Notes under the pieces: model-generated | Seen by the model: only the letters and a program-made list of their open reading frames with translations | What the model was told of the DNA's origin: nothing | Databases searched by the model: none | DNA from: Deltaproteobacteria bacterium | GTDB lineage: Bacteria; Myxococcota_A; UBA796; GCA-2862545 | NCBI GenBank assembly: GCA_007693595.1 | Contig: REDI01000043.1 | Location: 1 to 64,000 of the forward strand | Direction of reading: 5' to 3' | Length of the DNA: 64,000 bases | Made by a program: the position numbers and the translations under genes | Part shown: positions 13,095 through 16,623 of the stretch, piece after piece | Layout of the letters: each line of letters starts with the position of its first letter | How positions within the stretch are numbered: position 1 is the stretch's first letter

Positions 13095-13195
13095 GCTCGC
13101 CAGGGTCGGCCACGCTCTTGTCGCGAGCGGGCTCGTGGAGCAGCGGGGCGAGTCGCGGGTTAGGGCTCTGGGCCGAGTCGGTCTGGAGGGCGCCC

Positions 13196-14344
13196 ATGGC
13201 AGTCAGAGTCAAGAAGCTCGCCCGCGAGCTCGAGACCTCCCCCCAGCGCTTGCTCTTGCTCCTTGGAGCGGTGGGCTATGATCGCTACCGCACCGAGAAC
13301 GACATGGTCGCGGACGGCGCGGCGCGCAAGGTCCGTAGCTATGTCGCGGACCTCAGGCGAAGCGGCGAGTTCTCTCGCATGCTCGCCCCATCTCCTCCCG
13401 CCCCATCTCCTCCCGCCCCCGCCCCAGCGCCATCCGCCCAGGATCCGATCGATCAAGATCAGCTCCTGCGCCACCTCGACCGCCCCCTCGACGAAGTGAT
13501 CGAGCAGGCCCCCGAGCCCTCTTCGGATCCGCTGCTCGCCGAAGCCGCTCAGGCCCTTCGCGAAGAGCGACGCCGGATCGAGGCTCAGGCCCGGCGCCTG
13601 GCCGAGCGCCAGTCCGAGCTCGCGGAGCAGACCCGCTCTCTCGAGGCACAGCGGGCCGGGCTCCAGCAGGAGCGGGCGGAGCTGCGCGCCGAGCTCGAGG
13701 AGGCGAGACGGGAACTCCGGGCGCGCGCCGCCGATCTCGACGCCATCGAAGCCGGCGGCACCCCGCTCTCGGCCCTCCTCGAAGAGCGAGGCCTGCGAGG
13801 CCCCGACGAGCAAGGTCGTGCCCTCGCGGCCCTGGCCTCGGCACGAATGCTCGACGTCTTCCTCCCCCGCCTTCGGGTGGTCGACAGTCTCTCGGTGCGC
13901 CGGATGCTCGCCGAGCGTCTCGTCCTCGCAGGCGGCCCGCTGGACGGGATCGAGGGCCTGGCCGTCGTCCAGGTGGCCCCAGACCGCGCCGAGGTTCCTC
14001 CTCCTGACGAGATGGGGCGCCTGTGTGATCGCCTCTGGGGTGAGTTCTTGCTCTGCGGGCTGAAGAGGGTGACGTGGGTCGGCCTGAGCACGCTCGAGCA
14101 GCGCCTCCTGAAGCAAGGGCTCGATCCCCGCCTGACGGTGCGGTTCCTGCCGGCTCGGCGGCGCGAGGGGGCCACCGCCCAGAGCGATCTGAAGGACTCC
14201 GATGTTGTGCTGCTTCGGGCCGTCACCACCGAGCCCGATGCCGACGAGGTCTACGGCCAGGCCCAGATCCCTGTGTTGAACCTGGAGTCTACGACGCTCG
14301 TTGGGCTCGTCGCCGAGACGCTCGAGGCGTTGGGACAGCTGTAG
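13196..14344 (+). CDS. Coiled-coil protein with IF2_N-like N-terminal domain
   Basis: The start is the ATG at 13196, after TGGAGGG, giving 382 residues. Residues 1-55 (VRVKKLARELETSPQRLLLL) resemble the IF2_N module of bacterial initiation factor 2, a small helical domain that binds nucleic acid or ribosome. A Pro/Ala linker (about 65-82) and an acidic segment come next, then a long coiled coil (about 115-185, heavy in Glu, Arg and Ala). The C-terminal domain (about 195-382) has alternating strands and helices (LAVVQVAPDR, VTWVGLSTLEQRL, SDVVLLRAV) and is unknown to me. No membrane segment is present. Downstream lie a tandem Sm-like protein and RdgC-like genes, so a nucleic-acid role is plausible (inference). 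Confidence 0.6.
   Translation: MAVRVKKLARELETSPQRLLLLLGAVGYDRYRTENDMVADGAARKVRSYVADLRRSGEFSRMLAPSPPAPSPPAPAPAPSAQDPIDQDQLLRHLDRPLDEVIEQAPEPSSDPLLAEAAQALREERRRIEAQARRLAERQSELAEQTRSLEAQRAGLQQERAELRAELEEARRELRARAADLDAIEAGGTPLSALLEERGLRGPDEQGRALAALASARMLDVFLPRLRVVDSLSVRRMLAERLVLAGGPLDGIEGLAVVQVAPDRAEVPPPDEMGRLCDRLWGEFLLCGLKRVTWVGLSTLEQRLLKQGLDPRLTVRFLPARRREGATAQSDLKDSDVVLLRAVTTEPDADEVYGQAQIPVLNLESTTLVGLVAETLEALGQL
13387..13433 (+). repeat. Short in-frame Pro-Ala linker repeat
   Basis: CCATCTCCTCCCGCC occurs twice back to back, followed by a shorter Pro/Ala stretch. It encodes the Pro-rich linker between the IF2_N-like domain and the coiled coil. Confidence 0.6.
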
Positions 14345-14504
14345 TTTTGGTTTGACCCGGCAAATCCCTCGAAACCGCTTGACGGACAGCCAGGTGGCGT
14401 TTATCGTTGAGAGGCCCATCCTGTCTTTGAGCTCGGCCGAGCCAAGTGCGCGTCGACGCGAGTAGAAGACGAACGGACGCCGATTTCGGCGGGAGGTCCA
14501 GACG

Positions 14505-15338
14505 ATGCCACGACGCGTTCCCTATGTTCCCCCACCTGAGCTCCGATCGCCTCGGGGACCCAAGCGTGACGCGAAGGGGGGCCCGCGCGCCCCCAAGCGC
14601 CCCCCCAAGAAGCATCGCTCCGACCCGAAGGTCCGAGCTCGTGCCGAGGAGCTGGCCGAGAGCGGCATGCCCTTTCAGCTCGCGATGGCGGTCGCGTTGG
14701 GGCGGGTGAGTCTCAACGATGCCCTCGAGCGCCTCGCGCGACAGGAGCGGGTCCAAAAGATCATCGATGAGCATGATCTCTCACGGGCGCTCGCTACGCA
14801 GGTGGCCATCGGCCACGCGAGCCTCGATGCGGTCCTGGCGCGTCGGCGGATGCAAGAGCACCGCGAGCTCAACCGTCTGCGCTCCTGCCTCGACGAAGCG
14901 CTCGGACTGGAGCTGCCCCTCGTCTTTGGGCTTCACGGGCGGCGACAGGTCCAGGCCCACGTCCAGGCGGTCGAACCTTACACAGCCACCCTGCTCATCG
15001 AGGGCGCCGAGGACCCCGAAGAGGTCCACAAGCTTCAGTTCAAGTATGCCTATAAGCCTGAGTCCGCCAAGAAGGCCCGTCGGCTCATGAGCCACCATCC
15101 TGAGCTCAGCGCCGAGCCTGTCGCACCGATCAGGCGTCCCCAAGACCGCTACACTTGCTCCGACAAGCGGCTCTTCCGCTACATGGATGGCGAGCAGTCG
15201 ATCCGGGTCACCCTGCTCGAAGGCGAGGTCTTCGTCGGGGTCGTGACCTGGTTTGGGCGATACGAGTTCGGCCTTCGCTGCAAGGATGTCGACATGACCG
15301 TCTTCCGGCACAGCCTGCACGAGATCACCGAAGACTGA
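14505..15338 (+). CDS. Putative tandem Sm/Hfq-like RNA-binding protein
   Basis: A 277-residue protein. Residues 1-45 are very basic and Pro-rich (KRPPKKHRSD), suited to RNA or DNA contact. Residues 50-120 contain two copies of a helical repeat (AMAVALGRVSLNDALERL and ATQVAIGHASLDAVLARR). Two Sm-like barrels seem to follow. The first (about 130-190) has ELPLVFGLHGRRQVQAHVQA and ends KLQFKYAYK. The second (about 216-275) has VTLLEGEVFVGVVTWFGRYE and ends TVFRHSLHEI. This mirrors Hfq, where the Sm1 motif leads to a YKHA box; here FRHS takes that place. Hfq is normally a single-Sm protein of 70-100 residues, so a two-Sm fusion is odd. The assignment rests on motif resemblance only. Confidence 0.55.
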   Translation: MPRRVPYVPPPELRSPRGPKRDAKGGPRAPKRPPKKHRSDPKVRARAEELAESGMPFQLAMAVALGRVSLNDALERLARQERVQKIIDEHDLSRALATQVAIGHASLDAVLARRRMQEHRELNRLRSCLDEALGLELPLVFGLHGRRQVQAHVQAVEPYTATLLIEGAEDPEEVHKLQFKYAYKPESAKKARRLMSHHPELSAEPVAPIRRPQDRYTCSDKRLFRYMDGEQSIRVTLLEGEVFVGVVTWFGRYEFGLRCKDVDMTVFRHSLHEITED

Positions 15339-15472: not shown

Positions 15473-16102
15473 ATGTCGCTGATGTCTGGCGCCCTCACGG
15501 TGCGTCGCTTTCGCGTGGTCGGAGAAGACCCTGATGGGTGGCGCGAGATCTACCGCGATCGCCTCCAAGAACACGCCTTCAAAGACAGCCCGGTGGAGCC
15601 GGGCAAGGAAGAGAGGGAAGGTTGGGTCCAGGTCCACAACCTGCTCGATACCTCCTTCGAAGACTTTGATCGTTGGCTCTACAACGACTTGATCCTCGTC
15701 GGGCTGCGGGTCGACAAGAAGGTCCTGCCCGCCAAGCTCTTCAAGGCCACCCTCGCGAAGCGCATCGAGGCTTGGTCCCAAGAGAACGGCGACCAGCGTG
15801 CCCCCAAGACGGTCCGAGAGGAGCTTCGCGAGCGCCTCGAAGAAGAGTGGCTCAAGCGGGCCCTTCCGCGGGTGAGCGTCGCGGAGCTCTGTATCAACCT
15901 TACCGAGCGCTACGCCGTCATCGACTCTCTCTCCGAGTCCGTCGCCGAGCGGCTCCGCAAGCAGGTCTACCGGACCTTTGGGTTCAACCTGGTCCCCTTC
16001 AGTCCCCTCGACGCGGTGAACGATCCGAGTCTGCGCGACGCACTCGTCAACCTCTCGCCGTCCTACGTCGGGGATCCCTCGACCAGCCAGGGGGTCTCAT
16101 GA
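15473..16102 (+). CDS. RdgC-like protein, N-terminal part
   Basis: A 209-residue protein resembling the first two thirds of RdgC, the ring-forming DNA-binding protein that restrains RecA. Shared features are a GWV motif (residue 50-52), the segment KKVLPAKLFKATLAKRIEAW, then EELRERLEEEWLKRALPRVS and the end FGFNLVPFSP, in the same order as in E. coli RdgC (KILPSPVIKQAL, LLPRAFSR, PVVPL). E. coli RdgC has about 300 residues. The missing C-terminal part appears to be encoded by the next gene, whose ATG overlaps this stop. GAGGAG precedes the ATG. The two products probably form one functional protein. Confidence 0.65.
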   Translation: MSLMSGALTVRRFRVVGEDPDGWREIYRDRLQEHAFKDSPVEPGKEEREGWVQVHNLLDTSFEDFDRWLYNDLILVGLRVDKKVLPAKLFKATLAKRIEAWSQENGDQRAPKTVREELRERLEEEWLKRALPRVSVAELCINLTERYAVIDSLSESVAERLRKQVYRTFGFNLVPFSPLDAVNDPSLRDALVNLSPSYVGDPSTSQGVS

Positions 16103-16623
16103 GCACCACGGAACCCACCCCAACCCCGACGACCCTGGGCTCCGAGTTCTACCTCTGGCTGTGGTGGCGCAGCGAGGAGGAGGCCGGGCGCTTCGATGTG
16201 GGCGAGAGTGGCGAGCGCATCGAGCTCTTCGTCGACGATCGGCTCGCCTTTCGGATCCCTGGCGAGACGAAGGTGACCGCGGTGTTGACCGGCGACAACG
16301 CCTCCGAGAGCGTCGAGGCGAAGGCTGCGCTCTTCGGGGGCAAGATCCTCCAAGAACTCAGGGTTCGACTGCGACGGGACGACCGCGACTTCGTGGTGAC
16401 GCTCAAGGGCCCCGAGGTCCACCTCACCCGAGTCAAGCTGCCTCAGGTGCTAGGGGATAACGAGTTCGAAGCCATCCTCGACCGCATGTCGAGCTACGAT
16501 GAGTTGGTCTGGCTCGTGGGGGAGCTCTTCACCGCCTTCGGCCGCGAGCGGGCTTCCGACGCCTGGACCCAAGACATCGAGCCGAGGCTGCGGGCCTGGG
16601 TCGAGGGCTCTGTCCGGGGTTGA
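16099..16623 (+). CDS. RdgC-like protein, C-terminal part
   Basis: A 174-residue protein overlapping the preceding stop by ATGA. After a Pro/Thr leader, EFYLWLWWRSEEEAG matches the region around LTEWV in RdgC. Next comes a segment ending in SVEAKAALFGGKI, which aligns with the AGKVVTKLAL region. VHLTRVKLPQ corresponds to SLKRLKF, and DELVWLVGELF to the DADFILMTGEL end. The order is preserved but identity is low, so this half is less certain than the first. Coupled translation supports a two-subunit RdgC. A near-perfect -35 element for the following tRNA overlaps its stop codon. Confidence 0.5.
   Translation: MSTTEPTPTPTTLGSEFYLWLWWRSEEEAGRFDVGESGERIELFVDDRLAFRIPGETKVTAVLTGDNASESVEAKAALFGGKILQELRVRLRRDDRDFVVTLKGPEVHLTRVKLPQVLGDNEFEAILDRMSSYDELVWLVGELFTAFGRERASDAWTQDIEPRLRAWVEGSVRG

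Follow-up and report, generated by a model that had tools for sequence, protein, structure and literature searches.

A candidate Hfq-family protein with two fused Sm barrels and a helical-repeat domain in Myxococcota

The gene, its parts and its closest neighbours

The gene described here lies in the window, by which we mean the whole stretch of 64,000 nucleotides that was analysed, and its features are collected in Table 1. An original prediction, made from the letters of the DNA, had called the product a candidate Hfq-like protein with two Sm domains and a helical repeat module. The reading frame named there is real, has the extent assigned to it and contains the segments that were quoted. 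The promoter-like site in front of it was observed once, against 0.2 sites expected in shuffled sequence. The N-terminus had been described as basic; in 72 of 73 homologues the tail carries a net positive charge. Two copies of a helix repeat had also been proposed, and a profile-profile comparison relates repeat 1 (residues 40-86) to repeat 2 (80-122) with P = 5.8e-8 over 43 columns. Searches of this helical domain against Pfam and PDB profiles gave no convincing relative.

Table 1. Positions of the tandem Hfq-like gene, its parts and the adjacent features in the window
Feature	Position	Strand	Details
Promoter-like site TTGACG-17-TATCGT	14379..14407	+	some 100 bases 5' of the ATG; identified by consensus match alone
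Shine-Dalgarno GGGAGG	14491..14496	+	8 bases 5' of the ATG; from sequence
Tandem Hfq-like gene, 277 aa	14505..15338	+	ATG at 14505, stop ends at 15338
Basic N-terminal tail, residues 1-40	14505..14624	+	13 K/R, 3 D/E; pLDDT 62-82 (low)
Helical repeat 1, residues 41-79, contains AMAVALGRVSLNDALERL	14625..14741	+	helices 41-52, 57-64, 70-90
Helical repeat 2, residues 80-123, contains ATQVAIGHASLDAVLARR	14742..14873	+	helices 94-102, 107-123
Sm1 barrel, residues 124-184	14874..15056	+	helix 128-135; strands 139-143, 147-156, 160-165, 172-175, 179-183
HKLQ, residues 175-178, equivalent in Sm1 to Hfq YKHA	15027..15038	+	hhalign with Hfq and family alignment
Inter-barrel linker, residues 185-215	15057..15149	+	helix 185-194; PQDR motif ends in invariant R215
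Sm2 barrel, residues 216-277	15150..15335	+	helix 220-228; strands 232-237, 241-250, 254-259, 262-267, 271-276
Short RdgC-like protein, 209 aa	15473..16102	+	Pfam RdgC 6e-15
174-aa protein, unknown family	16099..16623	+	ATGA overlap with the RdgC-like gene; no Pfam match

The RdgC-like gene has about two-thirds of the normal length, and the Pfam RdgC model is covered at positions 24-170 of 298. The 174-aa gene that overlaps it might be a split-off piece of RdgC, or a partner. On the other side of the tandem gene, the protein encoded at 13118-14344 has an N-terminus that resembles the IF2 N-terminal domain by eye, followed by a coiled coil for which Pfam returned only weak coiled-coil matches; about half of the loci of the order to which the window belongs have it upstream.

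Fold and kinship with Hfq

The AlphaFold2 model of the full-length protein, built with 55 orthologues, has a mean pLDDT of 93.4 and shows a basic tail modelled with low confidence, a helical domain at residues 41-123, Sm1, a helix-containing linker and Sm2. Each barrel consists of a helix and five strands in the Sm order, and Sm1 modelled alone with 71 sequences gave the same helix and five strands (pLDDT 92.4). Both segments thus have the N-terminal helix and the five-stranded barrel that define the Sm/LSm fold superfamily. When the whole protein was compared with the PDB using Foldseek, Hfq came first and filled 47 of the 50 best rows, with TM-scores by target mostly of 0.73-0.91; with Sm1 alone, all 50 best rows were Hfq, at an rmsd of about 1.2-2.6. 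Identity to Hfq in the aligned structures was 11-25%. With domains this small (55 residues), the Foldseek E-values stayed near 1e-3; the probability given for the Hfq rows was 1.00. A search against viral folds returned only weak and mixed matches, phage proteins annotated as Hfq-like among them.

At the level of sequence profiles, the window protein alone matches Pfam Hfq weakly (E 0.11; 12.6 bits against a cut-off of 27), and the significance comes from the family, because its members match the Hfq models. Pfam Hfq matches 31 of the 55 orthologues and Hfq_1 matches 38, the best at 2.6e-9. The NCBIfam model of Hfq, TIGR02383, matches 9 of 37 members and NF047718 matches 14; in one orthologue TIGR02383 reaches 5.3e-11 with two stretches passing. 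The HMM check against Hfq that the original prediction had proposed gave matches to family members by Pfam Hfq, Hfq_1 and TIGR02383. In the PDB, the Sm1 profile finds S. aureus Hfq first (E 4.1e-4), and its nine best matches are all Hfq. Matches of the Sm1 profile to HIV gp41 covered only its first 36-46 positions and were judged to be chance. For the Sm2 profile the best matches are archaeal Hfq-like proteins (E 7.8e-7), followed by Hfq. By PDB, Pfam and NCBIfam scans, the profile match to Hfq is better than the match to other Sm families. The two barrels are also related to each other (P 7.4e-8 in a profile comparison), and a small set of Hfq sequences matches Sm1 at P 8.1e-7 and Sm2 at P 2.2e-9.

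The two Sm-like segments of the original prediction are in this way borne out separately by structure prediction, Foldseek, HMM search and profile comparison. A different fold in both segments, or the lack of any HMM match to LSM, had been named in advance as the outcome that would overturn it; these checks were run and neither outcome occurred. We regard the Sm fold and the homology to Hfq as almost certain. In a barrel tree of 64 columns, a short alignment that we used only to ask about the separate grouping of the two barrels, the Sm1s all cluster together (99/95), and so do the Sm2s (89/68). The tandem arrangement is therefore older than the spread of the family and, as far as computation from sequence can show, the two-barrel architecture is ancestral to it.

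Residues F42, K56 and H57 of Hfq bind uridine on the proximal face. In the E. coli Hfq numbering, F42 corresponds to Y/F159 in Sm1 and to an aromatic residue, 253, in Sm2; K56 corresponds to K176 and R268, and H57 to H269. The alignment also places G240 and G245 at Hfq G29 and G34. K176, R215 and H269 are each invariant among the homologues whose sequence spans the residue, and across the phylum Y/F159 and an aromatic side chain at 253 are conserved wherever the position is covered. The Hfq motif Y-K-H-A, with its proximal lysine/histidine, is represented in Sm2 by FRHS or FRHA. The original prediction had taken FKYAYK and FRHS as the two counterparts of YKHA, and half of this was right: FRHS (residues 267-270) is the Sm2 counterpart, whereas FKYAYK (residues 179-184) is the next strand of Sm1, in which HKLQ takes the place of the motif. 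The YKHA likeness of Sm1 is nevertheless real in the distant members, because the site reads KKHD, FKHD or YKHD there and the motif histidine is present in 14 of 17 of them. In the order of the window, Sm1 mostly has L or T at 177 in place of this histidine and mostly R in place of D9. In Sm2 it is the distant members that differ: 14 of the 17 have T or F instead of R268, the K56 equivalent. With these losses some pockets may be inactive, and the residues suggest that pocket specialisation took a different course in each of the two branches.

Distribution and the search for other RNA chaperones

The tandem gene is a single-copy core gene of the order: 59 of 63 genomes carry an orthologue, and none of the 27 good-quality genomes lacks it. 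A profile search of the phylum found it in 60 of 237 genomes, or about a quarter, with full-length matches outside the class in families f17, f35, f37, f41 and f45 and partial matches in f46. The reciprocal search from a distant member found 58 of the 237 genomes and recovered the window protein at 5.5e-19. With detection limited to roughly one in four sampled genomes, the gene product is, as far as shown, not the RNA chaperone of the whole phylum. An alignment-based scan of public genome contigs gave 41 loci whose record titles read Myxococcota, Myxococcales, Deltaproteobacteria or uncultured Proteobacteria, a few of these titles being evidently misnamed; the same contigs scanned with the single window protein as query gave no matches. 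No relatives were found in plasmids, phages or viral contigs.

The f46 members (L159:2224-3552 and L160:2045-3406) are longer, at about 440 amino acids, with extra segments resembling helical repeats before the barrels, and their Sm2 ends in YHS or FHG.

A separate hfq gene was looked for, as had been recommended, and none lies above the cut-off in the genome of the window; Pfam Hfq gives the tandem reading frame and one chance-level match, and the sensitive Sm2 profile matched only the tandem reading frame. ProQ is absent from the same genome. No single-domain hfq above the cut-off was found in the 237 genomes of the phylum, where the sole match over the cut-off belongs to the tandem family. 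Among 60 genomes of the order, two matches passed the Pfam Hfq cut-off and both are orthologues of the tandem family. Two further Hfq-model matches were judged false, one (G044:C321) being in another type of reading frame and the other (G065:C445) in a reading frame that overlaps others. In the first of these genomes, an unrelated protein of 250 amino acids (L068:1330-2082) has one stretch resembling an Hfq barrel (VTIVERDGAQITGQLLAFDTSAVVLRAEGGQ) at a sub-threshold score. The outcome of the genome and phylum searches agrees with papers on myxobacteria, which are reported to be without Hfq and in which an unknown protein may be the RNA chaperone; for their sRNA Pxr, the chaperone may be a protein other than Hfq (PMC5568312, PMC5684412).

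Comparison with known systems and proposed function

With classical Hfq (PF17209, TIGR02383; E. coli, S. aureus) the tandem protein shares the barrel topology, the helix before strand 1, the aromatic residue at position 42 and, in Sm2, the basic residue at 56 and the histidine at 57. It differs in having two barrels per chain with a helical-repeat domain and a basic tail in front of them, and most members of its family fall below the curated cut-offs. Because each chain holds two Sm barrels, the homo-hexamer of single-Sm subunits that is typical of Hfq is impossible here.

The idea of a two-Sm Hfq is already known. Sections of the published report on Zymomonas mobilis (PMC2877685) describe a two-Sm-domain Hfq in that species (ZMO0347, 60% identical to E. 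coli Hfq) and in six other Sphingomonadales species, and its authors raise the question of whether three subunits form the ring. The likeness lies in two Hfq barrels on one chain; the tandem family differs from ZMO0347 in being highly divergent from Hfq, and the same sections describe no helical-repeat domain for the Zymomonas protein. The NCBIfam model NF010691 (176 positions) probably represents the Sphingomonadales two-Sm Hfq. Membership of that group would be marked by >270 bits over the 176 positions, whereas the tandem family matches with one barrel only, at 18-24 bits (best 24.2, positions 36-76). The novelty lies in how far this lineage has diverged and in its conserved helical arm, a domain that was found in no known Hfq protein in this analysis.

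The archaeal and cyanobacterial Hfq-like proteins (MJ1435, PDB 2qtx/5dy9; NF047718; the 'mobile Hfq' clade, PMC11607428) include the best PDB match of Sm2, but they are single barrels of about 70 amino acids. Calls of atypical Hfq deserve caution, because BB0268, a borrelial protein once called an 'atypical Hfq', turned out to be a misannotation, and FlgV is a 2TM protein (PMC11607428). Unlike false Hfq of this FlgV/BB0268 type, with two transmembrane segments and no Sm fold, the present protein is modelled with Sm barrels, and it passes the fold and profile tests that BB0268 failed. We estimate at roughly 0.7 the probability of our preferred explanation as a whole, in which the gene encodes a divergent Hfq-family protein, with two Sm barrels fused behind a basic tail and a two-repeat helical domain, that would work in an Hfq-like way.

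The alternative that survives best, and that we still consider unlikely, is a tandem Sm-like nucleic-acid protein acting in DNA repair or replication restart, for example at R-loops, and not in sRNA regulation. It draws on neighbours linked to DNA or R-loops: within the order, 37 of 40 loci have the RdgC-like gene and the 174-aa gene as a pair, an RNase H gene lies directly upstream in family f9, and priA lies directly downstream in f17 and f35 (L152:3717-5954, L154:3820-6015 and six further distant loci; two of the eight were confirmed by Pfam and the rest by similarity, with a gap of a few bases, or an overlap in L154). The RdgC-like gene, however, occurs in none of the distant loci, and other families have an FtsW/RodA-type (f41), RsmD-like (f45), TetR (f37) or GNAT (f46) neighbour. 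As the neighbours vary between families, no single partner is kept, and their changing identity suggests a general role; the conserved uridine-pocket residues suggest RNA.

We give slightly less weight to a monomeric double barrel of the SH3/Sm type, comparable to the RimP C-terminal domain or to Tudor/KOW proteins, with a structural or protein-binding role and no ring. The RimP C-terminal domain is itself a small Sm-like barrel whose model, DUF150_C, weakly matches 4 of 71 Sm1s (best E 0.0057), and the remaining three of the best 50 PDB rows for the whole protein are a Tudor, KOW or spliceosome protein; Hfq nevertheless ranks ahead of RimP, Tudor and KOW in every search, the RimP domain is without the Hfq motif, and the tandem protein has both the HA motif and, ahead of strand 1, a helix of the Hfq type. 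A chance resemblance of a non-Sm protein, which the Pfam score of the window protein alone might allow, is scarcely credible and, as far as computation goes, is refuted by all of the family-level evidence (structure, Foldseek, profiles, Pfam and NCBIfam).

For the divergent Hfq-family protein that we favour, we consider an RNA-binding function quite likely, and we lean with less assurance towards a ring of three subunits. Three copies would join into a closed six-barrel ring, with Sm1 and Sm2 in alternation, and such a ring would offer up to six uridine pockets on its proximal face. The aromatic residue at Hfq position 42 (Y159, Y253) and the basic residue at position 56 (K176, R268) would form these pockets, joined in Sm2 and in the distant Sm1s by the histidine at position 57. 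The basic tail and the helical repeats may add a second contact, with RNA or with a partner, that ordinary Hfq lacks. The job of the protein would be Hfq-like, that is, the protection of small RNAs and the pairing of RNA with RNA in bacteria without another Hfq, and the chances that it serves specifically as an sRNA chaperone are about even. The fullest account, offered tentatively and at odds a little short of even, is that those Myxococcota lineages which carry the gene use an anciently diverged two-barrel Hfq, equipped with a helical arm for binding RNA or partners, as their sRNA chaperone, and that this protein acts as a six-barrel ring of three chains with pockets of two kinds; the lineage would have been overlooked because the standard Hfq models leave most of its members below their cut-offs.

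The tandem protein, a hitherto unannotated relative of Hfq, is from its sequence a strong candidate for the missing RNA chaperone of a bacterial group in which the myxobacteria are the best studied. As a core, single-copy relative of Hfq in an order placed with the myxobacteria, it provides a concrete chaperone candidate and a profile with which cultured myxobacteria can be searched. If the proposal is true, a ring with two alternating barrels would make the roles of individual Hfq pockets separable by mutation, unlike a ring of identical subunits.
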